DNA of 64,000 nucleotides from Heterotrichella gracilis. Lineage: Eukaryota; Sar; Xanthophyceae; Tribonematales; Xanthonemataceae. Positions 6,066-31,133 of this stretch are shown here, in pieces; positions within the stretch are counted from its first letter, which is position 1, and every line of letters starts with the position of its first letter. Position numbers and translations under genes: made by a program. A model generated the notes under the pieces. The model saw nothing but the letters and a program-made list of their open reading frames with translations. It was not told the origin of the DNA and did no database searches. The stretch spans positions 1 to 64,000 of the forward strand of contig JAULBX010024628.1 in NCBI GenBank assembly GCA_032358255.1. Reading direction: 5' to 3'.

Positions 6066-7366
6066 CACCAATAGGAAGCATCAGGGGCAGGGATAGGCAC
6101 AGTGGCTATAGCTGTCAGCTGCACCCATAGCTTCTACTATGTTAAAGTTTGTTGGGTTTAGGCAGAGGAAAGGGGGGGCAGGTGCTGGGTATGAGGACAG
6201 CACCCAATAGAGTTCTGGTGGATGCAAGGTGCATCTATGTGCTGTATATGCATGTACTGCGATTTTAGCTTGCAGTAAAGTTTTACCTATTGGACATGCT
6301 GCTGCATCGGTGTAGCATCCCACCGGTGATATAGTTTCCGCCATGGCATGCCTCTGAGAGTCACTACAGCAACTTTCTGAGTATTTTGTAATCTGACTCT
6401 GATTCCAACTTGTCTATTCCAGTAAGCTACGCAGGTGTTCAAACAAAATCTGGGCACAGTGTGATGGGTCACGGCAACTGACCCAACTTAGCTGTAGATC
6501 AGGCTGCTTCCCGTTGCTGAGTGTACCATTGATACACAAGCAGTCGATGCTCTGATTTAGCACCTATCTAGATTGAGCGGCAGGCTGAAATTCGCACCTT
6601 GGAGGTGCCTGGCAAGAGACAGGGGTGTGCGTCGCAAGTGTGCCTGCAAGCAGTTCGTGCGCCGACAACCCGAAATTTTTATGCGATGTTACGAGACATA
6701 TAGTAGTGGGTCCCTGGGTCAAGCAAACGTATAGTCACATATCAAGTTGATTCAAGCCCTTACTGTACTTTGGTGGGTGCCCACCAATTTTTGCCGATGC
6801 CGTGGCATGCCATCTGTAGACTTCCGAGTGCACAACGAGACGTTTCAGCTGACCATAGGATACCAACGAGGCGAACTACTGGAGTATCGCTGTTGCTTCT
6901 CACGGTGTGTCACGCACTGTTCTTGCTGATGTCGTTTCTGGCATTGCAGGCGGCACCACAAAGGCGGGCGGCGGGTGGTCAACAGCCGCAGAAACGGTTG
7001 TAGGTTTTGGTGTTACCCCTGACCTTCTCTGACTAAAAACTTGGTACATGTTCGTCGGCAGTCACGAAACACCGAGACAGGACGCATTCTCAGCCCCAAG
7101 CTGACGCTCAGCGCTCTCATTCACCTCATTAAGCTTAAAGAGACGTCACTGGGCAGTGGTTTAGCAAAACATCCACTACTGGCCCTCGCGTTTCGTTGCA
7201 CCAGGGTGTCGACGTATCTAGTGCACTACGTTACGACACAGCCAATTACCGGCTGTTGGTCCACCCTTATCACCACACTTATCGCACATTGTGCCCACCA
7301 CACACGCCAGTCGGGCCTCCTGCAGCAGTCAGAACCCACCAGAACGACCAGTAGCAGAATACCACG
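6066..7366. other. Intergenic region between kinase and Rubisco activase genes
   Basis: No gene family recognised on either strand. The region should contain the kinase 3' UTR and the promoter and 5' UTR of the activase gene. Open frames at 6747-7003 and 7041-7370 show no family signature and are not called. Confidence 0.5.
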
Positions 7367-10300
7367 ATGATACAGGCACGGCCACTTTGCCACTTGAAGC
7401 AACCTTCAGCTGCGTTCTCTCGCCCTTTGCTGGCGGGCAGAGCATGCCAGACAAACCCACTGCGGCTGGTTGTGAAGACCAGACCAGGATCCTCGGCTAG
7501 ACCCCTCAGGGCCACCACACCTGGTAGCACCCGGTCAAGGCTACAGGTACGGCCAGCAGCTATCCTGGGTTCATTGGGTGCCAAAGATCGTCCTCTTGTA
7601 CGCTTGGTTGCTTGTTTGGCCGTGCCATCACCCTCTCGGCAGCATTGAAGGGGTGTGCTGCTTTGCCGTACTGTTGTCAACGACCCAGTCCGCTGATTGC
7701 CAGTCCTGTGGGCACAGGTGGTGGCTGAAGATGTCAAAGTCTCATTCCAGTTGCAGCAGCAGGTGAGACAACCCTTAGCTGCGTGCTGCTGGTCTACACC
7801 ACGACACCGGTTTTTCGTTTCGCCATGGGCACATGTGATGACTCAGCCCACCACCCTCCCATGCCTGTGGGTTGTCCCTTGTAGCTGTTTGGTTGTCTGC
7901 TGCCATGACACTGCTTGACGATGTCCTGCAGCTGAAGTTTGGCGAGATATTCAAGCTGGTGGGCAACCACCCTTCCCTGGGCAGCTGGGACCTGGCCTCA
8001 GCACCTACCCTCACGTGGAACGAGGGCCATGTGTGGACTGCAGACCTGCATGTTCCACCCAACGAGCAGCTGGAGTTCAAGGTGAGGGCTTTTACCAGCA
8101 GGCTTGTACCTCCGGTAGTGGTGAAGGTTACTAAGGCATAACTTTGTTGAGTGACATGTCTCTTGGATGTTGGTGCTGTGCAAGCTGTTTGCTTGCAGTC
8201 CCCTGTCAGCACTTCGACTTGGGAACTCACTCGCGCGCGCCCTTTTGTGCAACTGTGCAGGTGGTTCTCTGTGGGCCCGAGTTTTGTGTATGGGAGGATG
8301 GGTGGAACCGCGGACTGCAGGTATGGTCACTACAAACACAGCCGTCGTACTTGCAAACGGGGCTATACACTGGTATCGCTGTGTGAAATAGACTGCTCCA
8401 CTGCTGCGGAGTGAGGTTCTGAAATATGGCATGCTACCCAGATAGTTACCAGTTATATTACCAGCCAGCCTTGCACATTGCGGCGCCAGACGTTTTCATC
8501 CTGGCGCTGTTTATACCGTTTGTTGACCTTGTATCGGGTGGTGAAGTCTACTTTTTGTACTGCTGCAGCTACCTGCTGAGCGTGATGCAAGCATGGCAGT
8601 GACACTCCAGTGGAACGACACCAACGAGCAGCATGTTGAGGTCTCGCTTCCAGAGCAACGCAGTGCGCCTAGCAGTGGGAGCTGGGATGCACCCCGTGCA
8701 CAGTCCTCCAAAAGGGGCAGAGCAGGTCAGCCACGCCAGCAAGCTGATGATGAAGGAGATGTGGTGTTCTTCCGCGGCCGTAGCATTCCACGCTCACAGG
8801 TACAGGGCTGCCTTTGTTTCACTTCCCAAAAAGGAAAATAAGAAAAGAAAAGTAACTTTGTTTAGTGGACTAAATAATTGCTGGTTATTTATTTGGGCAC
8901 TTCCCGCACGTCTGCAACTAGGCTTGTGCACTTCATACCAACTGGGTGCAGTGGTTGCGTGCGCAGCTGTGTGTTCTGAACCTGTTTGGAAATTGCTGCT
9001 GCAGCTGCCGCCAACAATGAGGGGCAAACCCACCATCAAGCCTGCTTCCCCTCCAACCTACTCCAATGGCCATACCAAAGCGCTGGACGCCACACCTGAG
9101 GTGAGCAAGTAGCGAGCATTAAATGCCGCATTTGCACTTTATGCCCAGGCCTTGTAATCTTGATATGGAACAGGCGGGGTTGTCCCCACAGAGTGCAAAG
9201 TGATGCTCCTCGGCCTCCACCCTGTTGATACTGGATCGAACATCCTGTGAGTGAGTTTAACCTGACCCCCCCCCTACCACTACCCTATGCCAACCACAAT
9301 GCACACCACTCTCCCGCAGCCACCCAGCAGCAGCGCACCTGCAGCCTCTGCAGGCAGCTCATCCAGCGACGTGGGTGACTCTGAATACGTGTATTTCCGG
9401 GGGCGCCGGGTGCCCAGGGCACAGGTGCCTGCACGCAAGCCAGCAGCCGGGTCCAGGCTGCCAACCAACAGCTATGCCAATGGACACTCGACTCCAACGA
9501 CAATGGTGAGCCCCTGTCACTGCTGTGTGAATGTGAGGGGATGTGCATGAGAGTGTGTTGGCACCAGCAGGAATACAATCCTAATAACTTTTCCTTTAAA
9601 ACGATTAAAGGAAAACCCGTTGCCAAACATATAAACAAATAAAATAAGTTCAAATGAACGAAAAGCATCATCAATTTTTTGTACTGCCAGTTGGCTGCTT
9701 TGAGGAGTGACACTGGTGTTCCCGCGTGTGCAGCACGTGAATGGCATCTCCCCAACCCCGTCCAGCAGTGCTCACAAGGAGGAACCAGCTTACCAGGTAA
9801 ACGCAGCCGCTTAAGCTGCTGGCCTACTCTGCAATCCATCAAGAGCAATGGACGTGCCCTGAAAATCACTCATCGCAACACCCAACAAAATGGCATTTTA
9901 CTGCATTTAGGGCCATTATTAGTCAAAACCAGGACCAGTAACGAAGTCTGGCACCGCATGTGCAAAAATTGGCTGTTTTTACTAGAATCCCCGCGCCCTC
10001 GTCTGCTGCAACGGAGGAACAATATATATGACTTTATTTCTGCGGCCTGCCCAAGTAGACCCCTGATACACCAGTCAATATAAAACTGGCTGGGGCTTTT
10101 AGAAAATAATGTATATTTCTTTCTTCAAAAGATTTATTTGAGATGGCTCCACTGCCTGCAGCCCGCCCAAGAACCCCCGCGCCACACCAACGGCCACAGG
10201 ACACCCAACCCCCGCCCCGCTCCAACCCCGCGCAGCATTAGCCCGGTGAGGACAGAGGCAGACGAGCTGCTGAACGCCACCCTGGCCAAGCTGGATAACA

Positions 10301-12599
10301 AGCAGGTAATTATGGGGCGACCGGGCGACTGGGTGATAAGCAGCAGCGTCTATGTGGCAATGCGCGGGGCTGAAGCTGGTGGTTGAGCAGCATTGTACAC
10401 AGCCACATGCACATGCTGGGACGGCGGTCATGATTCGGTGAAGTATCAGTTCACTAGCATTGGCAGCATATTGTGTGACATTCGGTACGGGGTGCAAGCT
10501 TGATTGCAGCAAATTGTTGATGATGCTGATATCAGCCTTGTTTCCTATTGACAGGGTTTATCTCACGCTAGCTGCGCTGTGTCAAACCGGGTCTACATGC
10601 TGAGTACAGCAAACAATCCACTGTGATCTGCGGCAGTCCAAACTTGCCGTGGCTTGCAGTAGTAATGGGTTTACTGATTTGCAGGATGGGTTCTACATTG
10701 CGCCCATGTTCTTGGACAAGCTGGCCATCCACATCGCCAAGAACTTTCTGGAGCTGCCCCAAATCAAAATCCCACTCATCTTGGGCATCTGGGGGGGCAA
10801 GGTGAGCGCGAGGTGCATAGCATGTGAAATGGAGGGGTAGGCTGCTGGGTTGGCATAGCTGCATCGACTTGCATTCAATCATCTCAGACGTGGAGGAAAA
10901 TGGGGGATAAGGATGCTGGCTGACACAAGCGCAGCGACTTGCAATCATTTTACTTTCCATTTGTATCAAGTCCTCTGCATTCAACGCCCTCGTCCATCTG
11001 CATTACCAACAGCACTGCTCATCTGTGACGTCCACATCCTTATCTCACTGCCCCCACCCGCGCCATCCCACAGGGCCAAGGCAAAGGCCTTGCAGTCTAC
11101 ACCTGCCAACTGGGTACCTCTTCAAGTGCCCCACACCCCTTACCCCTCCATCCTTCGTCCCACAGGGCCAAGGCAAGACCTTCCAGTGCAACCTGGCCTA
11201 CAAGAAGATCGGCATCAGCCCCGTCATCATGTCCGCCGGGGAACTGGAGTCGGGCAGTGCGGGGGAGCCCGCCAAGCTCATCCGCCAGCGCTACCGGGAG
11301 GCGTCCGACGTGATCAAGAAGGGCAAGATGTGCTCGCTGTTCATCAACGACCTGGACGCGGGCGCGGGGCGCATGGGCGACTCCACCCAGTACACCGTCA
11401 ACAACCAGATGGTCAACGCCACGCTCATGAACATCGCAGACAACCCCACCAACGTGCAGGTGCGGCCAGCCGCACTTGTTTTCTGGATGGCCGGTGGGCC
11501 TTATCGATGTGAACATTTATTGAAGTGACAGGGGGTGGGGCTGATACTGGGAAAACCGCTCGAGCAGTGCACTTCAGCCCTGCCCAATCGGTTTTCCCAG
11601 TATCAGCGCAAGGCCTGGTATGTTAATCCCCCAGATTGTGCCATCAATGACTCCGCATCATCGACGGTAGCCGCTGATTTGCAAATTCCAGCTGCATTCC
11701 TACCTCCAGCTGAGTATATATCAGGCTTTGAAGTTTCCTGGTGTGTGGCTGCAGCTCCCTGGGGTGTATACCATGGAGGAGATCCCCCGCGTGCCCATTG
11801 TGGCCACCGGCAATGACTTCTCAACGCTGTACGCGCCCCTCATCCGCGACGGCCGCATGGACAAGTTCTACTGGAACCCCACGCGCGCGGACCGCATCGG
11901 CGTGTGCCAGGGCATTTTCAGGAACGACGAGGTCACGGAACAGGAGATCGAGCGGTTGGTGGATATGTTCCCTAACCAGTCAATCGACTTTTTTGGGGCA
12001 CTGCGCGCTCGGGTGTACGATGACAAGGTGGGGCTGCATTACCGCAAACCATGCGTTTACTTATGTCAGAAGTACTCAGTTGGACCACTGAAGGGTGTGT
12101 TTGGTGCGGTAGAAGGTGTGGATGTGCATGATGGCAATCGGAAGCAATGGGAGGGGTTGCTCATTGCACGTAGCAGCCTGCATAAAATTAACGCAATATT
12201 CTGCTGGACAAGGAAATGTGGTGATAGCGGATTGGAACATCATACTATGGGCGTGCCAGGATATGAAGCTGGACAACTTGGCTGAGGATTATGCCCCTTC
12301 ATGTTCCATAGCAATGTAACCAACCAGCTGCTGACATATCCACGAATTGCGTGCAGGTGCGTGACTGGATCAACACTATTGGATTTGAGCAGATCGGCAA
12401 GCGCCTGGTCAACAGCCGCGAGAAGCTCGATTTCAAGAAGCCAACTATGGACCTGCAGCTGATGATGCATTACGGCAATGCCCTGGTTGACGAGCAGGAG
12501 AATGTGCGGCGGGTGCAGTTGGCAGATGCGTACATGCATGGTGCGGAGCTGGCAGGTGTGAGTGGGTCATCCTTGCCGGAGGAGTATGTGAAGGTGTAA
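7367..12599 (+). CDS. Rubisco activase fused to an N-terminal CBM20 starch-binding domain
   Basis: Thirteen exons, all joined in phase 0: 7367-7546, 7718-7762, 7932-8081, 8261-8320, 8569-8799, 9005-9100, 9320-9505, 9734-9796, 10162-10305, 10685-10801, 11166-11459, 11755-12027 and 12357-12599, giving 693 residues. Residues 1-60 look like a plastid transit peptide (rich in R, S, A). Residues about 61-165 form a CBM20 domain ([27 protein letters not shown]). Residues about 166-385 are a Ser/Pro linker with two FRGR motifs and repeated NGH words. The rest is Rubisco activase, the AAA+ ATPase that removes inhibitory sugar phosphates from Rubisco: DGFYIAP, Walker A GGKGQGKT split by an intron, Walker [48 protein letters not shown], and [16 protein letters not shown]. 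The activase exons offer no in-frame Met before the conserved DGFYIAP, which supports a single fused gene. The fusion itself still needs transcript support. Confidence 0.87.
8746..9423 (+). other. Two FRGR linker motifs within the activase gene
   Basis: Two exons each encode a similar short motif behind an acidic stretch: [13 protein letters not shown] (about 8761-8799) and [13 protein letters not shown] (about 9388-9426). The shared pattern is V-x-F-R-G-R-x-[IV]-P-R-x-Q. The intervening linker repeats the words YSNGH, YANGH, HVNG and HTNGH. I do not recognise this motif; repeated short linear motifs in disordered chains often bind a partner. Confidence 0.65.
11065..11093 (+). repeat. Exon-edge echo in the activase Walker A intron
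   Basis: CATCCCACAGGGCCAAGGCA at 11074-11093 copies the true acceptor and exon start CGTCCCACAGGGCCAAGGCA at 11158-11177, which encodes GQG of the Walker A loop. The copy diverges soon after and is not needed for the reading frame. Confidence 0.75.
11540..11607. repeat. Perfect 19-bp inverted repeat in an activase intron
   Basis: GCTGATACTGGGAAAACCG (11540-11558) and its exact reverse complement (11589-11607) are separated by 30 nt. This can form a strong stem-loop in the pre-mRNA. It could be a small foldback element or a hairpin with a splicing role; no target-site duplication was established. Confidence 0.85.
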
Positions 12600-13911
12600 A
12601 GGGTCGCTGGTGCAGAGGTAGTTGGACTGCGGTGTGGATGTGATGGTTGGGTGATGTTATGATGGGTTGGAGAGGCCAATCCTAGTGATGCAGATCGTGG
12701 GAGGATTGAATGGCGACTTACGTGCGTCCTACAGTGTAGCACACAAGAGGTGAGAAGAGATTGGTGCAGTTTAAAGGCCGTGATATAAAGCAGCAGTCTT
12801 CACTAAATGGCTGTCTGGGAAGTTGACCTGATGGATGAACTGGCAATGTTTTGCCTGGGAAACGGGATTTATTGACAATAGCGGTGCTTGGGTGCCCTGC
12901 TGTGTCTAGCAAACACTGCTGATGTATAAGCAAAAGCTTTTGCCACGTGAAGGAGGGGGATGCTGGATACTTGTGTGCTAAGAGCTCTTCAACTGCTCTT
13001 CAGTCACTTGCTTGAACTTGTGTACACCTTCTCTCGATAGTCCTGGGCAGCACTAGGATTTAACTGTCTGTAGTCGCAGCGTGGTTGGCTAGTAGCCACT
13101 TGTCCTGCAATTTGACAAATTAACAGAGTATCTACAAGCATTGGACAGCATTTGGGGTGGAGCTGTACAGGGTGTGAAGGGGTTTACCCGGTGTGGCTAA
13201 CATTGCGCCCAAGCCTTGATTCGTCGCAAAATTTCAATATTTCAACTTAGGAACTGACTACCAGACACACTTTCTTCCATGACATGCATTTCATTGTTGC
13301 ATATATGTTAATGATCCGTGGCAGTCCCCATACTTTGAAGTTTTAACACGTTTGTATGCGACTAACAGTTGCAGATTTGGCGTTGTAGGATCATATATGG
13401 TGCCACCCCTGTGCCACCACAACCGTTGACGACTGCCCCCCATATTATTAAAGGCCTGAGACTAGGGCTTCGTCAGGAACTTTTGCCGGTCAAGGTCAAC
13501 TTGCCAGCATCTGTGCACAATGTGCAGCACATGGATTTCGTTGGACCCGGTCAAATCCTAGGCTAGGGTCACCCAGCGGCTAGCCCCCAATTCTCAAATA
13601 CCCTAGGTTAGGGTTTACTACTTTGCCACTTCGCTCCCCGCCGTCCCTCGAGGATAGTGCACGTGAAGACCGGCAGAACGGTCTTGTCGGGTATACTTAG
13701 GCAGCAGAACAGCCCGTTCCTATAAATTCACGGAAGTATTCGTAAGGCTATCTTCCAGCTGCACATCGGGTCAACCAAAAAAGTGCCGCTGACCGAACTT
13801 TAGGTTGCCACTTTTAGCGCCATCACCAGCACTGGGCGATTGCAAACGCTGTGACCTTGAACTGTTATTACTAGCACTGCATAGCAACCCCACTGCTCTG
13901 AATCCCCTCCG
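12600..13911. other. Intergenic region between activase and PWD genes
   Basis: Contains the activase 3' UTR and the PWD promoter region. Short telomere-like words occur near 13600-13616. No gene family recognised. The absence of any gene between the two CBM20 genes matters for the duplication hypothesis. Confidence 0.5.
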
Positions 13912-16900
13912 ATGGGTGCCATCACTGTCGGTGTGCCTTCCAGCACCTGCAATGTTGTCCGGCCAGTGCAATCTCGCCAAGCACTAGGAGTGCGAAACCC
14001 AAGATGTAGCAGCAGCAGTGTGACGCGGTTGATGCACCCTCGCCACAGCGTCCAAAGGACCTTTGGGTCAAGTGGTCGCACGCAGCCTCCATCGCGATCT
14101 GGTCGTGCCGTCAAGGTATGCTCTCCACATGGGGTTTCCTAATGCATGGGGTGTTCACAACGAGACAAGTAGCTGTTGTATGGTCATACCCTGTAGTGCT
14201 TGATATCGTTTCCAGTTGTCAAGACCGTTTAGTACAACCGTGAAACAGAACTCAACACTCATGGTGGACGGCCATCGCCAAGCTGGCAGTTACAAGGTTT
14301 GAGTTTTGAATCCTGCTGTGTGTGCAGTGTGTGGCGGCAGATGTCCCCGTAACTTTCTCCATCAAGAAGGAGGTACGTGTGATTGAGCTTGCACTCCTCT
14401 CCTTGTGATCAATCTGCAAGTTTTGCCACGATGGCCCCTCCTTGGTAGCTGGTGAGTAGGCACCCATCCATGACTAAGCACCGCAAATGTCCAGGCAAAC
14501 TTTGGGGAAAGCTTCAAGCTCGTTGGGAATCACCCAGTGCTGGGCAACTGGAAGGTCCAGGACGGCCCAAGCCTCTCCTGGGGCGAAGGGCACAACTGGA
14601 CCACCCAGCTGTCACTGCCTGCTGGCCACGAGCTCGAGTTCAAGGTAGGCGCAAGCAGTACTAGCTGCTACACAGTTGTTTCTGCAAGGCGGGTGACTAC
14701 CTTTGCCCCTCAGGCAGGCTTATGCACTTTGCCAAGTCTCTTACACATGCATCCGCTAAGGAGCTAAACCAATGCTCACACCTAGTGTCAATGTTTGCCA
14801 ACTACTTCGTTGTTGCAGTGTGTGCGGGTTGGAGAGAGCAACGAGAGATGGGAGGACGGGAACAACCGCAGCTTGAAGGTAAGGGTGTTACCTACTCTCA
14901 GCCTTTGCACCCCGTGCAATTAGTGTGACGCGCTTCAGGCTGGGGTGGTGCCACGTTTATGTAGCTAGATGTGCATTTATTCAACTCCCTCTACGTGTGG
15001 TAGCAGTTACTTGTAGAAATGGAAGGAAAAATACACTATGCCACACCGAATACCCACTACTCCATACTCACTAGTGTTGAGGTCCACCTCATCACCCGTG
15101 TATAATAATCCAGTTACCAGATTGGGCTGTTTGGCAGCTACAGCATTAGACTGGCTAAATGGAACGGGGCATCGATTGCTGCATCAGGGAATCCAGCAAA
15201 CACCTTGAGTACCTGTGCCCTGCATGGTTGGCTTTTGCAGAGCGTTGACACGGAAACCCTAAACCCTAATCATGGTCAATCTGGATTGTAGTCCTGACTC
15301 TCTCGTGAATGGGCCACAGGTGCCCGGCGAAGCGGTGAACGTGGCGATGGAATGGGGCAAAACGCACAAGACTGTGGCGGGATCGACTTCAGAGGCTTCA
15401 CCTGCCGTCCGCAGCGTGCTGGCCAGCATGGTGGGTTATCCTAGACCCTGAACCCTGGAATCTGATGCTCAATCGCAGTCTGCTGCCCAGTCACGAGAGT
15501 GATCCGCACTGGGGTGTGGGACACAATTGTTGAAACCAGCACTTTCCTGCAAGACGTTGCCACCATGTTTGTGCACAGTAAAATGAGGAAGTCAGTGCAT
15601 TTCTCATTACGAGTTCCGTTTTTCTTTGAAACTGAACAACATGTACAACGCTGGCAAGGAGCTGAGCGAGCCCTGTGGCCTGCTGCAGGACAATGGCAGT
15701 GGTGCCGATGTGACTGCCTCCTTTGACGGCATGACCACCGGGGGCTGGGAGGTGAGTTGGCACCTGGGGTGGTGGCGCTGGAGGTGGTGGTGCGGGTACT
15801 TGGTGTGGGAGTTTATGGTATGGGCACCCGTGCACCAAGAGGAAATTTGCTCCACTCTGCTGCTTGTCAGGACTATTTTGCCAAGCTGAGCCTGCTAGCT
15901 CCTGTTGGTATTGCTGTGTCCATTTGCAAGTCTCAGTCGGGGATGGGTGCATTCATTATGAGACGGGAAGGGTCCAGGAAAGGCAAGGGGCAAGATCTGA
16001 ATAGCATCACGTACATGCACGCGTTCCAGCAGTACAGCCATATTCGCATTCAGTCCTCAAATGCCTTGCGCCAATCAGCCCTGTCCTTGCGCTGCTTATA
16101 CCATCTGCCCCCACTGTCAGTGGTTTAAGCTGATTCAGTAGTTTAGCCCCCACCCCCCTCCCTCCCTCGCTTAATATAACATTCGACTTTAATAATAATG
16201 CAGGGCAGGACCGTGAACTTCATGAAAGCCAATGAGCACTCGCGCGATCGCCAGGGGAAATGGGACACTAACGGCCTGGAGGGGGCAGCGCTTTTCCTGG
16301 TGGAAGCGGACAGCAAGTCAGCAAAGTGAGCAATTCACACACGCCACCACTTCGCTTGCACACACACAAACGTACTGCGCTTCTGAAAGCTTTTCTGGGT
16401 GTGCAAAGGCGCCATGCTTGCATCCCACATATACTGTGCACATTGGGGTGCGCAAGCATGGCACCATGTGATTACAGGGTTTAGGGCTGCGGGGTTAGGG
16501 TTTGGGCTCACGTGCCTCCTGTGTCATGCAGCTGGCTGGCCAAGCTTGAAAAGGTGAAGCAGCTGCTGGTGGATCTGGCACCACAGGGGCGCCCCGAGCC
16601 TGACGCCACTGTGTGCGCATACATCTACCTGTCCTGGATCGCCAACGGCGCCGTCCAGTGCGTGGAGGGAGGCGGCCACCACCGCCCCAACAGGCATGCC
16701 GAGCTCAGCCGGACCATGTTCAGGTAAGCGAGGGAGGAGGAAAGCCTCGGGAAATAAGACACAAACTTAAACAACCAGAATAAACTTCTTCCTAGATGCA
16801 ATTGTGTACATCTACATCTCATGGATCGCGAACGCCATTAAATGCTGGGGGGGCATGCAAAGCTCAGCCGCACCGGTTCAGATGATCCGAGGGCAACAAG

Positions 16901-19900
16901 AAATGGAAAATGTCCGATTACTGAAAACTTCAGCCCTAACAACGTAATGGTGTTTATTATGGTACATTTTCCTGTTTGCAGGTCTCTGGAGTGGGTTGTT
17001 GGCGAGCAGGGCGGCTCAGTGAACGGTCTCATCGCGCGGCGCATGCACGCAAAGCTGCCATCCTTCTCCGGCCAGTACACCGCATCCACCCCCCTCACAC
17101 GCATCAGGGACATCGCGCACAGGTATGTTAGGGTTTAGAGTTCAGGTTGGAGGTGTTCAGGATGTAGTGGTAGAGGGTGTTGGGCATCAGGGACGTCGCG
17201 CACACATGAACGCATACAGGAGATGGGAAGGGGGTGTGGGTTAGCCCTGGCAAAACGGCCGCATGGCGGGGGTTGGTGCAAGGGTTGTAGGTGGAAGCAG
17301 GGGGGGCACAGAGTGATGTCGTGTGGCCCGCAATATTAGGTGCCTGGCCTGCAGCAACAGATAAATCGCACCCTATGCCCTAAACTTTGCACTCTGGAGG
17401 AACAACAATCCAACGACTTGAAGCATGGGAGCGAGCATAACCAACCCCAACCCCAAACGCTGAACCCTAACCCTATTTCCGCAGGAACGACATCCCCCAC
17501 GACCTGAAGCAGGAGATCAAGCACACCATCCAGAACAAGCTGCACCGCAACGCAGGACCGGAGGACCTGGTGGCCACAGAGCTCATGCTGGCAAGGGTCA
17601 CACAACAACCAGGTAAGGGTTTGGGCAGGCGGGACGTGACATGAAAACCCAGGCGAGGGTTTGGCTACAGAGCTCGTGCCGCGAGTGGCTCGCAAACCCC
17701 AGGTAAAAGTTTGGGGTGCAGCCAGGTGGACGCTGGCACCCATGCGAACCACCCCTCCAGCTCTCCCTCTCATGGTCTGATTTTTCTGGGCGCATGCGGG
17801 TTGTTGATGAATGGGTAGAAGTTAAGTACCAAATCGAAGTACAGAGAACAGATATATTCACCCGGATGCTGAGTACTATGAATACAGTAACCTTGGTTGT
17901 TTTGTTGATCTGTCCCCCCTCTTCTGCTCCCGCAGGCCAGTACAACAACGACTTTGTTGAGGAGTTCAAGAAGTTCACCATTGAGCTGCGCGACTTCTTC
18001 AACGCAGGCAGCTTTGCAGACCTGCTGCTGTCGCTCAGGGAGTCGCTGGACAGCGCGGGCATGCAGGTATGTGTAAAGGGTACGCTGTGTCAGATGACAG
18101 GCGCCAGCAGGGATGCGCAGGTCGGTCATACGTTGCATGGGCAGTTGCACAGTCCCTAACTCGATAGAGTGGCGGGTGGGGTGCCCCGGGGCTCAAACGG
18201 CAACTTTGCCATTTGCAAGCTGCTGCCGTTGCTCAAATGGCTGGACAATGCGGGGGTGCGGGTGGTGCAGGGAGCGCTCGACGTCAAATCAAAGTCGCTG
18301 TGGTTGGGCATGCGGTGCGCATGCCACACCTTAGATTGCCCTGGCACCTATGGCAGACGTAGATCGAAAAGGACTTGCTGACAAAGCGTTACATGGGGCT
18401 GGCACTTGGCAGTGGTTTGTGAAAGAGAGCTCACCCCAGGTGCGGGGTGCATGTTACTCACCCATTCACCCACCCCCAGGTGCTGGACTCTTTCCTGGCC
18501 GCCAAGTCCGTGGTGGACTCCCCCGATGGCAACAACCTCAACGCCATCACCGAGGCCCTGCACAAGGTGACCACCCTGCGGGCGCTGCTGTCTGCGGGCC
18601 TGGCCAGCGGCCTGCGCAACGACGCCTCGGACAACTCCATGGCCATGCGCCAGCGCTGGCGCCTGGCCGAGCTCAAGTGCGAGGACTACTGCTTCGTGCT
18701 CATGTCGCGCTTCCTCAACGTGGTGGAGGAGCAGGTGGGGAGGGGTGCAGGGTGCAGGGGTGGGGTTTAGGTATAGGTTTGGGGCAGCGACTGGCGCAAC
18801 GATGCTGGGGACAATCTCTGGCGCGCCATGGCGCCTATGTATTGGCTGTACCATTTGAGTAGATATAATCTGATATCATGCCTGATAGGACAGGTTCGTC
18901 CATGCTCACCATCCCACGGCTGTAAATGTTTGTAGCCACGCACTCACACATTGCGTTTGGCGCGCTGCAGGGAGGCGCGGAAGGCATCGCCAACGGGGCC
19001 GACAGCGGGTGGGGCCTGCCCATCGGCGCCGCTGTGCTTGGTGTGCGCAACATGGGGCTCACTGGGTGGCAGCCTGCTGAGTGCATGGCGCTGGAGAATG
19101 AGCTGGCTGCCTGGCAGAAGCAGGGCGCGTTTGCTGACAAGGAGACGGCGCTCAGGTGCGGTGCCCGGGTCAAAGGTCTACAGTTTTGGTTTAGGGCTTT
19201 GGGTTCAGGGTTAATTCCTATGTGGAGCTTGTGGCATGGCAGAAGCAGGGCGGCAGTACCTGCATGGCATTACTAGATATGGTGTATGCATCCTCTCGGT
19301 GCACTACCATATCTGGTTATCTCCCCCTTTGCTGGAGACCTGGAGTATCTGATGTATGAGTGTTGAGGGCGGATGTGCATTGGTGCAGGGTGTGGTGGGA
19401 GGTGTAGCTACAATTCAACACCCATCCGCCATTATCACTGATACTGCAGCGCCCCAAACTACCTTGAACCACTCCTGCCCCTCCGCCCGCAGGCTCAAGG
19501 CCAGCCTGGAGCGGCTGCAGCGCATGACCGAGTCCATCTGCGAGTGCCTGCTGGCTGACCTGCCCCAGCGCGCGGTGGCCATGGGCCAAGCGCTGGGCAT
19601 CAGCCCTGAGCGCTACTCTGTGTTCACCGAGGCCGAGATCAGGGCCAGCCTGGTGTTCCAGCTCAGCAAGCTGGTGCAGGTGCTGGTGAAGGCCACGCGC
19701 GTGGCGTCGGGGGGCGCGGAGTGGGACGCGCTGGTGGCAGGTGGGAGGGGAGGCGGGGGTGATGCGAACAGCTTGATGCAATTCCAATGTGAACTGCCTT
19801 CCTGCCGTTTATCCCAACCCTCCATCCCCATGCAGAGATGCATGCAGTCCATCCCCAGTCCCACAAAGTGGAGTTCATTAGCATCCATATCATCGCATCC

Positions 19901-22900
19901 ATGGGCCACAAGGGAGAGTCACCATTAATCAAATCAGAATGATCATCCCGCATCACATTGCATCCCATACCCATCCCAGTTCCGTCACGCGTCGCAACCC
20001 CGCTCCCCTCCTCCCCAACCCTACCCCACCCCCCACCCACAGGCAAGGTGGTGGGCAAGCTCATCGAGGTGGACGCCATGGAGCCCGGGTGCGTGCCCGA
20101 GGGAGGGGACGTGGTGCTGCTGGTGAAGCGCGCGTCAGGCGATGAGGAGGTGGCGTCACTGGGCAGGAACCTCAAGGGGGTCATCCTGTGCCACTCGCTG
20201 CCTCACCTCAGCCATCTGGGTGCGTGCGCTTGGAAGGCATTGGGTTTGGTTTATGACAGGATATGCCCAAAGCGCAGTGCAGCTGTGCCATGATGCCCCT
20301 CGTGCCGATTTTCCCTGGACAGCAGCCTCTGCACGGTTCCCGCTAGACTGCAGTTGAGCTGCCACATGTACAGGCAGCGTCTACCTGTCACCTTGTAACA
20401 TTCCTTGACTGGCGACTCACACATTTGCCTGTGTGCAGGTGTGCGTGCCCGTCAGGAGCGTGTGGTGTTTGCAACCTGCGAAGACGAGGGCACCGTCAAC
20501 GACCAGGTGCGTCCATCTGTGTGTCCTGGGTCTGCGTGGCTTGCATGCCCGTTGTTGTGTTGATTGCCGCCTCCTTGAACCCTGCTTATGTGCTTCTTTC
20601 CCTTCTTGCTTCTGGTCATGTTCAACACCTTCAGAATGTGGGACCAATCAGGCCGCATTGCTCCTGCCTGCATCTCGTTCGTGTCTGTATTCATCTTCCT
20701 CTCTAGTGTGTGTTCATTACCCTATTTTGAAGTAATATAACTCACATTTATTTACCTGTCTAATACTTATCTGTGTTTCCTTCTCAGGTGCGGCCGCTGG
20801 TGGGGCGCCAGGTGACGCTCAATGCCACCTCCAGCCGCGTGGTGGTTGCGGCTGCAACTGATGAGGAGATGCAGCCGGCAACCAACGGAGCAGCGCCCGC
20901 CGCCGCCGCCGCCTCCAACGGTGCGCTTGGTTCACAAGACTGCCATGCCAGCATGTGCCAGCCTGCACGCATGGCGTGCTGCACATCCGCTGGCCAGTTG
21001 CAAGCTCTTGATCCAGAGCTGACTACGATTGCATTTATTGCTTTTAACTCAAGATTGCCTACAACCGCAAACCCTAAATCCTAACCCGAGGCTGTCCACC
21101 GCAGGCGCGGGCCCTGCCAAGCCCACCGTCGTCAAGCGCTCATCAGGCGCCAAACTACTCCCCCTTGCCGAGGCCACCGTTGCCACCTGCGGCGCCAAGT
21201 CAGCAGCCTGCGCCAGCCTGGCCAAGCTGGCGGCTAGTGGGGGCACATTTGAGGTGCCCTCGGGGGTGTGCCTGCCATTTGGATCCATGGAAGCGGTTGT
21301 CAAGGTACCTTTTGGTTTGCCTGGCGTGCGGGCATATGGCCCTCTACCCACACCACACCACCGCATAGCTGTTGTCTTCCTGGTCGCGAACGTTTTTGGG
21401 ACGGAATACCTTTTTTGATTGTACTACCTGCTTAACCGTCCTTTTGCTGCAGCTGACCTGCTGGCGTGCGTGTGATAAGTAATTTAAACTGTTCATTCTT
21501 TGCTGCAGGCCGCTGGTAAGGAGAGCCAGTTCAAGGAGCTGCTTGCGCAGGCGGAGACCGCCCCTGCCTCTGGCCACCAGCTAGAGGAGGTTTGCGAGCA
21601 GCTGCAGGCGCTGGTGGGGGGCTTGAGGCCACCGGCAACGGTGCTGGCTGAAGCAGGTGAGGATCTCATGGTGGTTAAATGGTAATACAAGCATTCTGCG
21701 TGCTGAGATCGGTGTCCCCGACCTTACGGGATGTGTATTAGCCAATGCTGTGTGCAGGCCAGGCGCTTTGGGACCTCAGCCAGAGCCATTGCCTGCTCCT
21801 CCAATGATGCATGTCTCAGCTGAAACTACCGAATAATTTTGACGTCACATTCCAGGTTTTAGTATTTGCTGTGGCTCGGTCAATGCGATGTGTCCTACCC
21901 AGCGCTGTGTGTTCCCGCAGGCAAGGCGTTTGGCGGCTCTGCCACTGTGATCGCCCGCTCATCAGCAAACGTGGAGGACCTGGCGGGCATGTCGGGGGCT
22001 GGGCTGTACGACTCCATCCCAAACCTCAACCCCCAGGACCCTGAATCCCTGGGAGAGGGCGTGGCCAAGGTGTGGGCGTCGCTGTACACGCGCAGGGCGG
22101 TGCTGTCAAGGAGAGCGGCAGGTGCGCAGAGAACCCCTGTACAATAAACCCAAAAACTCGGATGTAAGAACTGAAGTCTAATTGGAACCAAGCCTGACCC
22201 TCTTAGTCAAGAATTCAGAAGTGCTGTTTACCAGGCCTGGTCATTCCTCACCTTCCCCTACCATTCCACTTTTGATGCGCACACATACGCCATGTGCCTC
22301 ACTGAATGCGCACCCCATCCAACTTCGCTGAATTCTGAACCCCCTCTTAGCCTTGCAGGCGTGCCCCACAAGTAGGCCAGCATGGCGGTGCTGGTGCAGG
22401 ACATGATCCTGCCCAACCTAAACCCTAATGACAACCTCAAACCTGCACACTGAACCCTAGAACCCCTCCTCTTCCTGCAGGGGTGCCCCAGAAGGAGGCC
22501 AGCATGGCAGTGCTGGTGCAGGGCATGATCCTGCCCGACCCAAACCCTAAACACAAATCCCAAACCCTACACACTGAGCCCTAAACCGCCTCCTCCCCCT
22601 GCAGGCGTGCCCCAGAAGGATGCCAGCATGGCAGTGCTGGTGCAGGACATGATCCTGCCCGACCTGTCCTTTGTGCTGCACACCGTCAGCCCCCTTGACC
22701 AGGACCCCAACGTGCTGTATGCTGAGGTGGCAGCAGGGCTAGGCGAAACCTTGGCCAGCGGCACACGCGGTTCGCCGTGGAGGCTGGCGGTCAACAAGGA
22801 GACAGGTGTGGAGTAGGGTTTTTAGGGTTTAGGGTCTGGGTCCAGGGGGGGTGTGGGCGCCTGCGTCGATGTCGCTTGTGCAGGTCTTGACTGCTGGTCA

Positions 22901-23393
22901 AGATGTATTGCTCGAGTGAAAGTACCTGACCAATTCACCCTACACAAAATCCCTAGCCTGTGGCACTCGTGGGCTAGCTGGCGGTCAACAAGGAGACAGG
23001 TGGGGAGGGCTGCTATGAATCACTTGTACAAGGCTGACTGCTACTCTGGAAGTGATGCTGGATTGCATGTACCTTGATCTGTACTTATCAGCTCCACTCA
23101 CCCGCCATTTGCCCCACCCCCCTGCAGGCTCTGTGACCACCCTTGCCTTTGCCAACTTTGCCTCTGGCTACTTGGCCTCTAGCAGCGGCAACGGGCGTGG
23201 CCAGGTGACCTCCCAGATTGTTGACTATAGCACGCACCCCCTGTCAGCATCGGTGGAAACCCGCGTGGAGCTGGGGCAGAAACTGTCGGCAGTGGGGGTG
23301 CTGCTGGAGGGCGCATTTGAGGGGGCGCAGGATGTGGAGGGGGCGCTGGTGGAGGGGAAATTGTACGTGGTGCAGACCCGGCCCCAGCCCTAA
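13912..23393 (+). CDS. GWD3: Phosphoglucan, water dikinase (PWD/GWD3) with CBM20
   Basis: Twenty-two exons fit in phase from the Met at 13912 to TAA at 23393, about 1,173 residues, close to the family's usual size of roughly 1,200. Exons: 13912-14115, 14328-14372, 14495-14644, 14819-14878, 15320-15430, 15596-15751 (start uncertain), 16204-16325, 16532-16723, 16982-17122, 17485-17612, 17936-18066, 18480-18734, 18971-19155, 19493-19740, 20043-20219, 20439-20506, 20788-20920, 21105-21304, 21509-21656, 21921-22121, 22605-22805 and 23128-23393. A transit-peptide-like start precedes a CBM20 ([21 protein letters not shown]). The phosphohistidine site is [13 protein letters not shown], and the nucleotide-binding domain has [49 protein letters not shown] and VVQTRPQP. 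The enzyme phosphorylates C3 of glucosyl units already pre-phosphorylated by GWD, opening plastid starch for degradation. Confidence 0.95.
16806..16880 (+). repeat. Exon-edge echo (long) in PWD
   Basis: TACATCTACATCTCATGGAT and following sequence repeats the 3' part of the exon ending at 16723 (TACATCTACCTGTCCTGGAT, 16620-16639), including the later GAGCTCAGCCGGACC-like segment near its donor. About 75 bp, diverged and lacking a clean donor. Confidence 0.8.
17183..17205 (+). repeat. Exon-edge echo in PWD
   Basis: GGCATCAGGGACGTCGCGCA copies the end of the exon at 17122 (CGCATCAGGGACATCGCGCA). The authentic donor is followed directly by TTAGGGTTTAG, a telomere-like run. Confidence 0.8.
17661..17705 (+). 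repeat. Exon-edge echo in PWD
   Basis: GGCTACAGAGCTCGTGCCGC through CCCCAG|GTAAAAGTTTGGGG mirrors the end of the exon at 17612 (GGCCACAGAGCTCATGCTGG through ACCAG|GTAAGGGTTTGGG), including a plausible donor site. Confidence 0.75.
19224..19252 (+). repeat. Exon-edge echo in PWD
   Basis: GAGCTTGTGGCATGGCAGAA and the following GCAGGGCG repeat the exon segment GAGCTGGCTGCCTGGCAGAA at about 19100-19127, a short distance downstream of the donor at 19155. Confidence 0.75.
22359..22664 (+). repeat. Exon 5' edge present three times in PWD
   Basis: The first 60 bp of the exon starting at 22605 also occur at 22359-22418 and 22481-22540, each preceded by a pyrimidine-rich GCAG acceptor. The period is 122-124 bp. 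Both extra copies end at the same base (after CCCGACC or CCCAACC) and run straight into AAACCCTAA. The first copy has a stop codon; the second stays open but has no donor. The third, full copy is the one that continues the PWD reading frame. Confidence 0.92.
22974..23002 (+). repeat. Exon-edge echo (donor side) in PWD
   Basis: CTGGCGGTCAACAAGGAGAC followed by AGGTGGGG copies the 3' end and donor of the exon ending at 22805. This exon therefore has echoes on both sides. Confidence 0.85.
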
Positions 23394-28000: not shown

Positions 28001-31000
28001 CACCTGAGAGAAACAAACAGTTGGGAGTAATGGAAGATGGAAAAACTGTGATGCACCTCATCGGAATTTTAAGTTTGAGGACATTGGGTTTTTGAATTCA
28101 GTGACCTGCGGGTGTTCGGAGTCAGTGGAGTTTTGTATTGTTTCTGTCTGATGCATGCCCAGCCACTTACGCCTGTACTTTGCAAATCAAATTTGCACAG
28201 AAGCCCTTAGCCAGGGGAAACGGAGGCAGGCAATCACCATGGTTCGACGTCAATTGAATAAGGTACCCACATGTTGTCGACCAAGACCTAAACAGGGTTT
28301 GGGGTTTGATCAAGGTTTGGCCTGGCTCACCGTGCCCATTGAAGACCAGGAGGAACACTGTGAGGATGGCGATGTTGATGAAGTTGCCCAGGCCCTGCAG
28401 GCAACGTCATGGAGTAGGAATTAGTCAAATGGGTTTGTAATGTTGACTCAGCAACGACTTATTTTCCTGCTGGCATACATAATTAGGTTTATTTGGCCAA
28501 GATGGGACACGCAGCATGTTCACAGTCATGCCTGTAATATTAAGCTGGATAGCCCTGTCGCTATGCTTTATAGGCCCTTAGGGTAGCCATCAGCATGCCT
28601 GGATGTCTGCACATCATTGACAGAGCGCCCTTCCTGCACGCCCACCCCTCACCGCTTTGCATGCTGCACCCACTTATAAGCCATGGCCCCCACCATGGCA
28701 TGCACTTCACCCTCTCTGCGCCATGCCCAAACCCTAACTTTTGCACACACCTGTGCAGGCATGGAGAACCAAAACCATCTCCCTGCACCCACACGATTTG
28801 GGTCCTTGCTCACCCTAAACCCCAACCCTAATCTTCCTTAAAGGTAATATCGCTAGCATCATGCCAGCGCTCCAGTGACAGGAAGCACTAAAAACATTGC
28901 CGTGCACAGCCACACTATGCACCTGCATGGAGAAATTACCATCTCCCTGACCTCCTTAGGGTCCATGTTGGCCTCTGGCCCGTAAACCCTAAACCCTCAC
29001 GCGGTCATCGGCACATGCACATTACCGTACCTGCATGGAGAAAGTGAGCACCGTCTCCCTGCCCCTCCTTGATGTCCTTGTTTGCCTCTTCCCCCTAAGC
29101 CCTAAACCCTAAACCCTCACCTGCATGGAGAAAGTGAGCACCGTCTCCCTGCCCCGCAGCTCCTTGATGTCCTTGTTTGCCTCTGCGCGCTCGCTGGCTG
29201 ATGCAGCCGACATGGGGTACTCGCCACCCACGCCCAGGCCGTAGAAGAACTGGCTCCAGCTGAACATGATCACAAAACCCTAGGAAGGGTTCAAGGGGAG
29301 GTGGTCAGTGATTGTGCAGGAAAATACTGCTGATTTGTAGTGCGCACAACACCCTAGGAGGAAATGGGGCACAAAACCCTAGGGAAGGGTTCACAAGGCA
29401 AGCCATGAAACACATCCTGGGAGGTTAGCAGTGGGCGCTCCTGCGGAAAGCAAAAGGTAAGCATACAAGCGCAATGTAAGTTCCCACACACACCTATGGT
29501 CTGCGCAATAGCTACACGGGACAACCTTCAACGCTAGACATTGGCAAGCAGGCTACCGCCAGAAACCCTACACGCCCCTGCAGGGAAGCCACTGCCAAAA
29601 CCCTAAACCCTAACCCCACCTCCAGGGAAGCTGCTGCCCAAACCCTAAACCCTAAACCCACCTCCAGGGAAGCGCCATCCGAGCAAATCAGCATTATTAT
29701 TCCGATTATCATGATGATTGCCGTGGTGATGGACCCCCGGCGCCGGCCAATGACGTCAGCAAAGAAACCCAGCACAATCTGGCACAAGCGCACGGAGGTG
29801 TGTGAATATTTCAGTAGTTCAGCCATATATTACACCAGTCGAGCTTGATTCTTCGTCATTCTTAAGCACTGCTGAAAGCTGCTTGATAACAGCAACATGC
29901 AGCAAGCTAGTGCCTTGCTGGCAGATTTCTAATCTACTGACAATAGCCTCTAAATCACAATGTGGAGCACCGGTACTTGACACCCTGTAAACTTTTATCC
30001 CAAACCCTGGTTGCAACCCCTATCGAGCAAACACATTTCCCCTGGGTGATTTCCAGGTGTTTGCGGCACTTGGCTGCCATGGTAGATACCACCACCAGTC
30101 ACAGATTGCGTAAACATCTCCATGCACACATGTGTGCCACCTGGCTCACCTGGCCAATGATGATCCCCACAATCTGGATGTAGGTTTGGGACTGCACCCA
30201 AGTTTTGTTGCACTCCGTGTACGTCTTGAAGCAGCTGGGGTACATGGTCTTGAACACGCCGCTGAGGTTGCCAATGGAGAAGATGACGTAGCCCTCGGTG
30301 AACATGCCCAGCCCTGCAGATAGGCATTTCGTAAGTCTTGGACCAGTAACTGTGAACACAGTCTTGAGGGTTTAGGGTTCAGGGTTCCAGACTGTGCGCA
30401 TGATGCCCTACCTGCAGCAGCTGCATCCAGCTGCACTGTGCCATGGTTGAAAAAAAAGCTACAAGCTATGATTATCCCTTTGTCACAAGTTGCTAACACC
30501 CTCCCGAGTACCGAATCGGATGGAAAAGATGACGTACCCATCAATGAACATGCCCAAGCCTGCAAGGGAGTTTCAAATTGCAAGCTGCAAATTGCAATGG
30601 CATACTGCTATACTTGATATGTAAAAAATCATTGAATACCAAAAACAGCAGACATGTGCGAAGTTGGATTCACTGTAAAATATATTTTGGGTTGCTGAAG
30701 ATTGCCCACACAGCAGTAGCCAAAAAAGTTGTTGGTGCACCAGACATAACCATCAAATTGGGCACGTCACCTTTCAATTGGGTTGCTAAGCGCTTGGGAT
30801 TGTGGCTGCCCACACCTTGCAAGAACTCAGTGGCCACTGGCACCGGCCATACACACAGTTTGATTGCGACATCTTGGGCATCCCTCTATATACAACGTGC
30901 TGCCCTTGCTGGCACAATCCCCACCTGACTGGCACAATCCCCACCTGGCTGGCACAACCCCCACCTGGTATGGCCCAGCGCAGGAACGACGTCATGAAGG

Positions 31001-31133
31001 CGCCAAAGGGGTCGTAGCGCAGCGGCTTCAAGGGCACCGGACCCTTGGATGTGGCCAGGAATGGCGCCTCGTCATTGCCGGGCTTGGTGTCGGATGCTTT
31101 ATGGGTAGGGGTGGTGGGGGTTGTGGTAGCCAT
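25058..31133 (-). CDS. MFS phosphate:H+ symporter-type transporter
   Basis: About ten exons on the minus strand from ATG at 31133 to TAG at 25058. Exon 1 (31133-30965) and exon 2 (30313-30150) join in phase 1. Conserved stretches in order: MTSFLRW, GLGMFTEGYVIFSIGNLSGV, DVIGRRRGS between membrane segments, FFYGLGVGGEYPMSAASASE, ANDFAFYGDKIFQATFIK, FQFLYLFSSFWNQLGPN, FPTPVRATAHGLAAASGKLG, and LPDTTGLDLTEADRRWDYIK. The order matches the phosphate:H+ symporter branch of the major facilitator superfamily (PHT1/PHO84/GIT1-like), a 12-helix plasma-membrane carrier. Whether it moves inorganic phosphate or a glycerophospho-compound cannot be told. The hydrophilic C-terminus (about 25058-25265) is shared with no family I know. 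Nearly every intron carries exon-edge echoes. Confidence 0.85.
25586..25607 (-). repeat. Exon-edge echo with a strong donor in the transporter
   Basis: On the minus strand GATGGGACTACACAAAG|GTGAGT resembles the exon end TGGGACTACATCAAG|GTGAAA near 25754-25775. The echo's donor matches the splice consensus better than the real one. Confidence 0.7.
25605..25740. repeat. AT-rich tract
   Basis: About 135 bp made almost only of A and T (ATTTTTTAAATTG, TAATTTAATTCATTTTT), in contrast with the GC-balanced surroundings. It lies within a transporter intron between the echo and the true exon end. Confidence 0.85.
26860..26882 (-). repeat. Exon-edge echo in the transporter
   Basis: Plus-strand CCTACTTGTCGATGAAATAG copies CCTACTTGTCGATGAAGTAG at 27091-27110, which is the coding end (YFIDK) and donor of the exon beginning near 27300. 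Confidence 0.85.
27789..27808 (-). repeat. Exon-edge echo in the transporter
   Basis: The plus-strand word CGTAGGGCGGACCAC copies the GGPPY-coding start of the exon near 28003 (TGTAGGGCGGACCAC at 27989-28003). This copy lies on the far side of the exon from the acceptor it resembles. Confidence 0.7.
28923..29185 (-). repeat. Exon 3' edge present three times in the transporter
   Basis: The exon that ends at 29121 (coding ETVLTFSMQ before the donor) has two downstream partial copies of about 55-59 bp at 29031-29089 and 28923-28977. Runs of CCCTAAACCCTAAACCC join the copies. The nearer copy is almost identical and retains a donor-like CAG|GTACGG; the farther one is more diverged. Confidence 0.9.
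29573..29680 (-). repeat. Exon-end plus TTTAGGG tandem repeat in the transporter
   Basis: The exon end GCGCTTCCCTGGAG|GTGGG (minus strand, edge at 29662) is followed by TTTAGGG runs, then two further GCTTCCCTG[GC]AG copies (edges near 29620 and 29575), each separated by more TTTAGGG. The unit is about 45-50 bp. Confidence 0.85.
30519..30562 (-). repeat. Exon-edge echo of the transporter GLGMF exon
   Basis: Minus strand encodes GLGMFIDGYVIFSI after a CAG, copying the start of the exon at 30313 (GLGMFTEGYVIFSI). It stays open for some codons and could act as an alternative exon start, but it lacks the rest of the exon. Confidence 0.85.
30910..30975 (-). repeat. Donor-site array, 20-bp period, transporter exon 1
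   Basis: The unit CTGGCACAATCCCCACCTG occurs about three times in tandem next to the exon 1 donor at 30965. On the coding strand this makes three successive CAG|GTGGGG donor-like sites 20 bp apart. Confidence 0.85.

Follow-up and report, generated by a model that had tools for sequence, protein, structure and literature searches.

A candidate starch tether built on a Rubisco activase core, with a linker motif that recurs in three other genes of the same alga

Can a single chloroplast protein hold the machinery that repairs Rubisco at the surface of starch? The question is raised by a gene at positions 7367-12599 (+ strand) of a 64,000-nucleotide stretch of algal DNA (contig JAULBX010024628.1 of assembly GCA_032358255.1, deposited as Heterotrichella gracilis; hereafter the window), whose predicted product, here called the fusion, joins a transit-like start, a starch-binding CBM20 domain and a basic linker to the AAA+ part of a Rubisco activase. 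A first-pass annotation made from the letters alone had proposed that a complete activase is held in this way at the Rubisco-starch interface. We rebuilt the gene from sequence, searched the genome that contains it (G000; 68.5 Mb in 903 contigs, the one genome from which the fusion is described) and compared its parts with homologues and with known systems. The reading that we favour, with a probability of roughly 0.57, is that the fusion would tie the Rubisco repair machine to starch: short linker motifs, termed stickers below, would bind Rubisco, the AAA+ part would enter mixed rings, and the CBM20 would derive from a PWD-like gene.

The rebuilt gene contains 13 exons, each a multiple of three in length, separated by introns that run from GT to AG in 12 of 12 cases, and it reads as one open frame of 693 amino acids from the ATG at 7367 to the TAA at 12599, without a frame break. 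The 13 phase-0 exons of the first-pass annotation are thus reproduced, as is its remark that no in-frame Met precedes DGFYIAP in the activase exons, because exon 10 begins exactly there. The linker, about 217 residues rich in Pro, Ser and Ala, carries two stickers of the VYFRGR type, and the short motif NG[H/I] occurs once in each of exons 6, 7, 8 and 9. In all five linker exons (5-9), frame 0 scores best of the six frames, with four of the five scores slightly below zero; over the whole gene it is best in 11 of 13 exons, the scoring having been trained on a small set that included exons 10-13 of the fusion.

Pfam assigns residues 66-152 to CBM_20 (PF00686; 53.3 bits, cut-off 23.3), residues 420-562 to AAA (PF00004) and residues 566-660 to RuBisCO_activase_AAA_helical (PF21228), the last two also above their cut-offs. 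Among solved structures, the activases 4w5w_A (E = 3.4e-150, residues 380-682) and 3t15_A (E = 1.3e-145, residues 381-670) are matched, and the CBM20 part matches solved CBM20 domains of starch-active enzymes. The Trp residues of LGSWD, VWT and VWED align with Trp in those domains, and we take all three to be ligand contacts.

How much of an activase is present? Walker A (GGKGQGKT), Walker B, TGND, LIRDGRM and the pore loop are all found, and we take their roles in the fusion to be the familiar ones. Ordinary green activases also have an N-domain of about 70 residues before DGFYI[AS]P; its QQDI, QTDI or QLDI mark is present in 115 of the 120 homologues listed (of 1752, drawn from the 7987 candidates sharing most words), while P0070 and P0087 begin past it and P0076, P0092 and P0105 lack it. 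A tblastn search of 7001-13000 with the alga's own N-domain (RWK..DDQQDI..RGR.MVDS.FQG) gave no convincing match (best E = 0.085) and no N-domain exon in intron 9, whereas the control, the other activase of this genome on contig C275, was recovered at E = 2.6e-30. The claim of a complete activase with every AAA+ motif therefore stands for the motifs and falls for completeness, and the reading as a complete activase plus CBM20 is rejected. The match at E = 0.085 is itself the sticker of exon 5; the resemblance is weak, and we do not claim the sticker as a homologue of the N-domain stretch DDQQDI-RGR. The end of exon 9 was likewise rejected as a remnant of the N-domain tail, since 93 of 500 shuffles score as well. 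In tobacco activase, N-terminal deletions of 51 or 58 residues keep ATPase activity and abolish activation, the N-domain being needed to engage Rubisco (PMC5437159). By analogy, the fusion is likely to depend on a partner subunit for any action on Rubisco, unless its linker has taken over the contact.

The ordinary activase on C275 (8 exons, 447 residues) has a full N-domain and one sticker, in the exon preceding that domain. Its last three exons (294, 273 and 243 bp) have the lengths of fusion exons 11-13, and the start of fusion exon 10 falls inside a single exon of it. The two proteins are 79% identical over 308 codons, with a pairwise ratio of nonsynonymous to synonymous substitution rates (dN/dS) of 0.21 (NG86) or 0.27 (LWL85), an average of both copies. 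Of the 179 columns in which 113 algal activases show at least 98% conservation, the fusion keeps 173 and the ordinary copy 178; one of the six changes in the fusion is a gap that the ordinary copy shares. These comparisons indicate that the activase core of the fusion is still constrained. A tree of 119 activase cores puts the two copies into an unresolved group that also contains Chlorella, Parachlorella and Picochlorum (support 83/77, from a bootstrap that had not settled), and because of this placement the organism appears to be Chlorella-like. A third, divergent activase relative lies on C425 (about 29869-34054, + strand, locus L020), with GGKGQGKTFQ kept and the pore loop altered (GELEHEWAGTPG).

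The sticker, VYFRGR[KR]VPRSQ, occurs in exons 5 and 7 of the fusion. A DNA pattern for [YF]FRGRx[VIM]P, run over the 68.5 Mb, gave eight exact matches, every one of them within three genes; its reversed control gave 1+1. Protein searches at E up to 10 found eight and then nine places, counts that are lower bounds, all in those three genes and the ordinary activase. The nine copies are divided between the fusion (two), the ordinary activase (one), a repeat protein on C275 (four) and a gene on C210 (two), so that two of the four sticker genes are activases. In six of the nine copies, and at least once in each gene, the sticker runs directly up to a phase-0 intron (1/2, 1/1, 2/4 and 2/2 in the same order). 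For VYFRGR, the literature searched, which leaves most subscription papers and all bioRxiv preprints outside it, gave no match.

The gene for the C275 repeat protein (13139-11496, - strand, locus L040) shares its strand with the ordinary activase and lies immediately upstream of it. Its five exons specify 232 residues with a transit-like start and four VYFRGRKVPRSQ repeats. The stickers are spaced at 51, 49 and 55 residues, and the chain is rich in Ser and Pro, with an isoelectric point of 10.3 from residue 46 on. The protein has no match in solved structures, and its sole homologue found, P0121, from a source whose longest contig is 1,328 bases, is 69% identical with the layout kept. Between the two, 50 of 52 motif residues are identical, against 68 of 129 in the spacers (Fisher p = 3e-9). 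We regard the C275 protein as a candidate pyrenoid linker of the EPYC1 kind. The C210 gene (about 48700-42269, - strand, loci L041 and L064), described from open frames with topology judged by eye, would encode a protein with a twin-arginine-like stretch in its transit peptide, a coiled coil and a hydrophobic segment, and with two stickers in its C-terminal tail; it is perhaps a thylakoid tether like RBMP1/2.

Because an EPYC1-like protein encoded beside the ordinary activase holds four copies of the motif, about 50 residues from one to the next, and that activase holds one, we infer that the stickers bind Rubisco. The fusion would probably reside in the pyrenoid. The CBM20 would then keep the fusion at starch and the stickers would keep Rubisco attached to it, while the AAA+ part would enter rings, most likely mixed hexamers with the N-domain-bearing ordinary activase; such rings would enrich activase at the face between matrix and starch. 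The first-pass idea of a tether at the Rubisco-starch interface thereby gains independent support, since the genome searches found the linker motif otherwise only in the other activase, the EPYC1-like protein and the coiled-coil protein; what it loses is the complete activase. On a somewhat broader scale, we lean slightly towards a sticker system convergent with that of Chlamydomonas, in which one hairpin sticker was spread by exon shuffling, four proteins define the parts of the pyrenoid and an activase doubles as starch tether. The repeat linker would correspond to the matrix, the ordinary activase to repair, the CBM20-activase to the starch face and the coiled-coil membrane protein to the thylakoid face.

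Several known systems can be set beside this one. Cyanobacteria have an activase with a C-terminal small-subunit-like domain, which resembles the fusion in giving activase its own module for binding Rubisco or the condensate, and differs from it in that the module sits at the other end, is a folded domain and is not known to bind starch. Green-type activases (4w5w, 3t15) share with the fusion the AAA+ core and the activase-type helical domain, whereas in the fusion a CBM20 and the sticker linker stand in place of the N-domain. Targeting to the Chlamydomonas matrix requires a single Rubisco-binding motif, which also suffices for it, and motif proteins with an added tubule- or starch-binding part are proposed to link the matrix with tubules and starch; SAGA1 and SAGA2 pair this motif with a starch-binding domain (PMC10473226). 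The fusion is like SAGA1/SAGA2 in that a single chain has both a starch-binding domain and short motifs that repeat, with a proposed matrix-starch link; it differs in its motif, in its AAA+ part, none being described for SAGA in the accessible part of that source (PMC10473226), and in that one can see its origin next to a PWD-like gene. FLIPPer, the screen for linkers like EPYC1 that picked out CsLinker, looks for repeats 20-120 residues apart in a disordered chain, and the CsLinker stickers are described as helices that contact RbcL through F-x-x-R-K (PMC11570498). The C275 repeat protein, a basic chain rich in Ser and Pro with its four motifs at even intervals, lies within that spacing and in this resembles EPYC1 and CsLinker; it differs from them in its motif and in a predicted hairpin rather than helix, and its binding of Rubisco is putative.

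A number of observations weigh against the tether as we read it, and they bear on four other explanations. The first concern the activase part. Lacking an N-domain, the fusion may, by the tobacco analogy, be unable to activate Rubisco alone, and its branch in the tree is 0.91 long against 0.20 for the ordinary copy; because of this long branch, the constraint on it appears weaker and its tree position is unsure. The fusion could thus be a structural tether only, with an AAA+ part inactive on Rubisco whose ring is a scaffold that multiplies CBM20 and sticker copies in the manner of SAGA1. The long branch, the failure to find an N-domain in 7001-13000 and the presence of a complete one-sticker activase on C275 all agree with such a role, but the fusion retains Walker A/B, TGND, LIRDGRM and the pore loop and shows no change at 173 of 179 near-invariant columns, which is more than a scaffold requires. 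We consider a purely structural role unlikely, with odds that overlap those of the other readings.

The second group concerns the sticker, for which Rubisco binding is argued from company and analogy. The looser pattern V[YF]FRGR gave 19 matches against 15 for its control, nine of them in the four genes and ten elsewhere; none of these ten translates to the full motif, and two frames resemble translation factor IF-3 by eye. The Rubisco-binding motif of Chlamydomonas is [D/N]W[R/K]xx[L/I/V/A], and it was not matched in the fusion, the repeat protein or the ordinary activase. AlphaFold2, run without an alignment, predicts the sticker as a hairpin, not a helix: from exon 7 alone, the fusion sticker forms a hairpin at a confidence (pLDDT) of 77 to 82, and the four P0121 stickers form short hairpins between low-confidence stretches, with ten-residue means of 57 to 94. 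Note that both models are otherwise low (means 61 and 63) and that strands in the P0121 transit region warn against over-reading. The F-x-x-R-K spacing does occur in YFRGRK, but the stretch is predicted as a hairpin. The sticker might then bind a target other than Rubisco, such as a factor of the thylakoid or of starch, or else the activase ring itself, with the CBM20 taking activase to stromal starch rather than to the pyrenoid. The mismatch with the Chlamydomonas motif and the difference between the predicted hairpin and the helical CsLinker stickers fit this alternative, whereas a basic protein of plastid type that is encoded beside an activase and holds four copies at even intervals has the kind of layout sought by FLIPPer (PMC11570498); we judge it distinctly unlikely.

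The third group concerns the integrity of the gene. In exons 1 and 4, the coding frame is not the one preferred by codon use. TGTAA, the algal poly(A) signal, occurs at 9153, shortly past an in-frame TAG at 9110 if intron 6 is retained, so that a short CBM20-sticker transcript is possible; further copies lie at 12315 (intron 12) and over the stop codon. Two products would follow if a CBM20-sticker protein ended within the gene while the activase part went unexpressed or were decaying. The TAG and TGTAA of intron 6 would suit this, as would the lack of an N-domain exon in intron 9, but the frame runs through whole-codon exons with GT/AG at 12 of 12 introns, NG[H/I] is present in each of linker exons 6-9, and the activase exons are conserved in sequence and have neither an ATG upstream of DGFYIAP nor a transit peptide, which together make two products improbable.

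Finally, the fusion architecture is without a second witness, since neither a CBM20 nor a sticker is present in any of the 120 listed activase homologues (of 1752); the search for other CBM20-activase architectures that the first-pass annotation had suggested thus yielded none in that set. An assembly join or recent pseudogene, which knowledge of the fusion from one genome with no homologous fusion in that set would allow, is very hard to reconcile with 693 codons without a frame break, ordinary introns, a conserved activase core and, between the CBM20 and activase parts, stickers of the ordinary-activase kind, unlikely from a chance join.

Features of the fusion gene and its downstream neighbour are given in Table 1.

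Table 1. Features of the fusion gene and of the adjacent PWD/GWD3-like gene, in window coordinates
Feature	Position	Strand	Basis
Exon 1: start codon and putative chloroplast transit peptide, 60 aa	7367..7546	+	targeting by eye
Exons 2-4: CBM20 core, 45/150/60 bp	7718-7762, 7932-8081, 8261-8320 (span 7718..8320)	+	gene model, Pfam
Exon 5: CBM20 end, linker start, sticker 1	8569..8799	+	gene model
Sticker 1, ends at exon border	8758..8799	+	genome motif and protein searches
Exon 6: linker	9005..9100	+	gene model; frame 0 best of six
Exon 7: linker with sticker 2	9320..9505	+	gene model
Sticker 2, predicted beta-hairpin	9380..9424	+	motif searches; AlphaFold2 of exon 7 alone
Exons 8, 9: linker, in place of activase N-domain	9734-9796, 10162-10305 (span 9734..10305)	+	gene model, tblastn
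Exons 10-13: activase AAA+ and helical domains to stop	10685-10801, 11166-11459, 11755-12027, 12357-12599	+	gene model, Pfam
PWD/GWD3-like gene, exons 1-4: transit-like start and CBM20	13912-14115, 14328-14372, 14495-14644, 14819-14878 (span 13912..14878)	+	exon comparison
PWD/GWD3-like gene, remainder; PPDK_N match 21932-22414 running across introns	15320..23393	+	gene end by eye, exons partly modelled

Where did the CBM20 come from? The next gene downstream encodes a CBM20-type dikinase (PWD/GWD3-like), and its exons 2-4 measure 45, 150 and 60 bp, exactly as in the fusion. The CBM20 exons of these tandem neighbours are identical at 43 of 85 residues; the difference is that the fusion has the linker and activase in place of the dikinase part. 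The simplest account is that the fusion CBM20 probably arose by tandem duplication of the 5' part of the PWD-like gene. The joint between CBM20 and linker lies inside exon 5, not at an intron. The duplicated 5' exons would accordingly have been joined, within exon 5, to a sticker-bearing linker, and a phase-0 intron would mark the point where this linker meets the duplicated 3' part of an activase. Contig C886 carries another PWD-like 5' end. Within the PWD-like gene itself (22358-22665), two nearby copies of one exon stand ahead of it; their identity is 92% and 94% over 62 bases, and the first copy has an in-frame stop. Elsewhere in the genome, a locus on C519 (20083-21100, + strand, L065) encodes a CBM20 followed by a coiled coil, a SAGA1-like layout by eye; the sticker searches of the genome gave no match there.

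The search with fusion residues 1-392 found only four plant CBM20 proteins and no fusion. Some listed activases have additions of other kinds: P0087 (Chlamydomonas) and P0070 end in C-terminal tails of repeated DFS[QK]WL, and P0107 (Tetradesmus obliquus) has a long repeat tail holding DRW[SA].YS-like stretches, so that repeat tails may have been gained by activase several times in green algae. The activase gene model P0010 (Chlorella vulgaris), which also has an unrelated N-terminal part, carries QLEFMARKRAGG around residue 602, upstream of the N-domain; this stretch fits the F-[LM]-x-R-K contacts described for CsLinker, and a link between the two, looked for in solved structures, was not found. 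The whole window also contains 35 telomere-type heptamers (TTTAGGG/CCCTAAA) against about 7 expected from base composition, seven of them in tandem pairs and several within introns.

In the literature searched on activase with a CBM20 or starch-binding domain, as far as its accessible text goes and with the scope given above for VYFRGR, no CBM20-activase fusion is described. The four sticker genes amount to a candidate motif-guided system in a Chlorella-like alga, with other domains that suggest roles at the matrix, in repair, at starch and at the membrane. The PWD-like gene next door indicates the probable source of the fusion CBM20. An activase with starch binding and stickers in one chain would, if true, offer a compact component for pyrenoid construction in crops.

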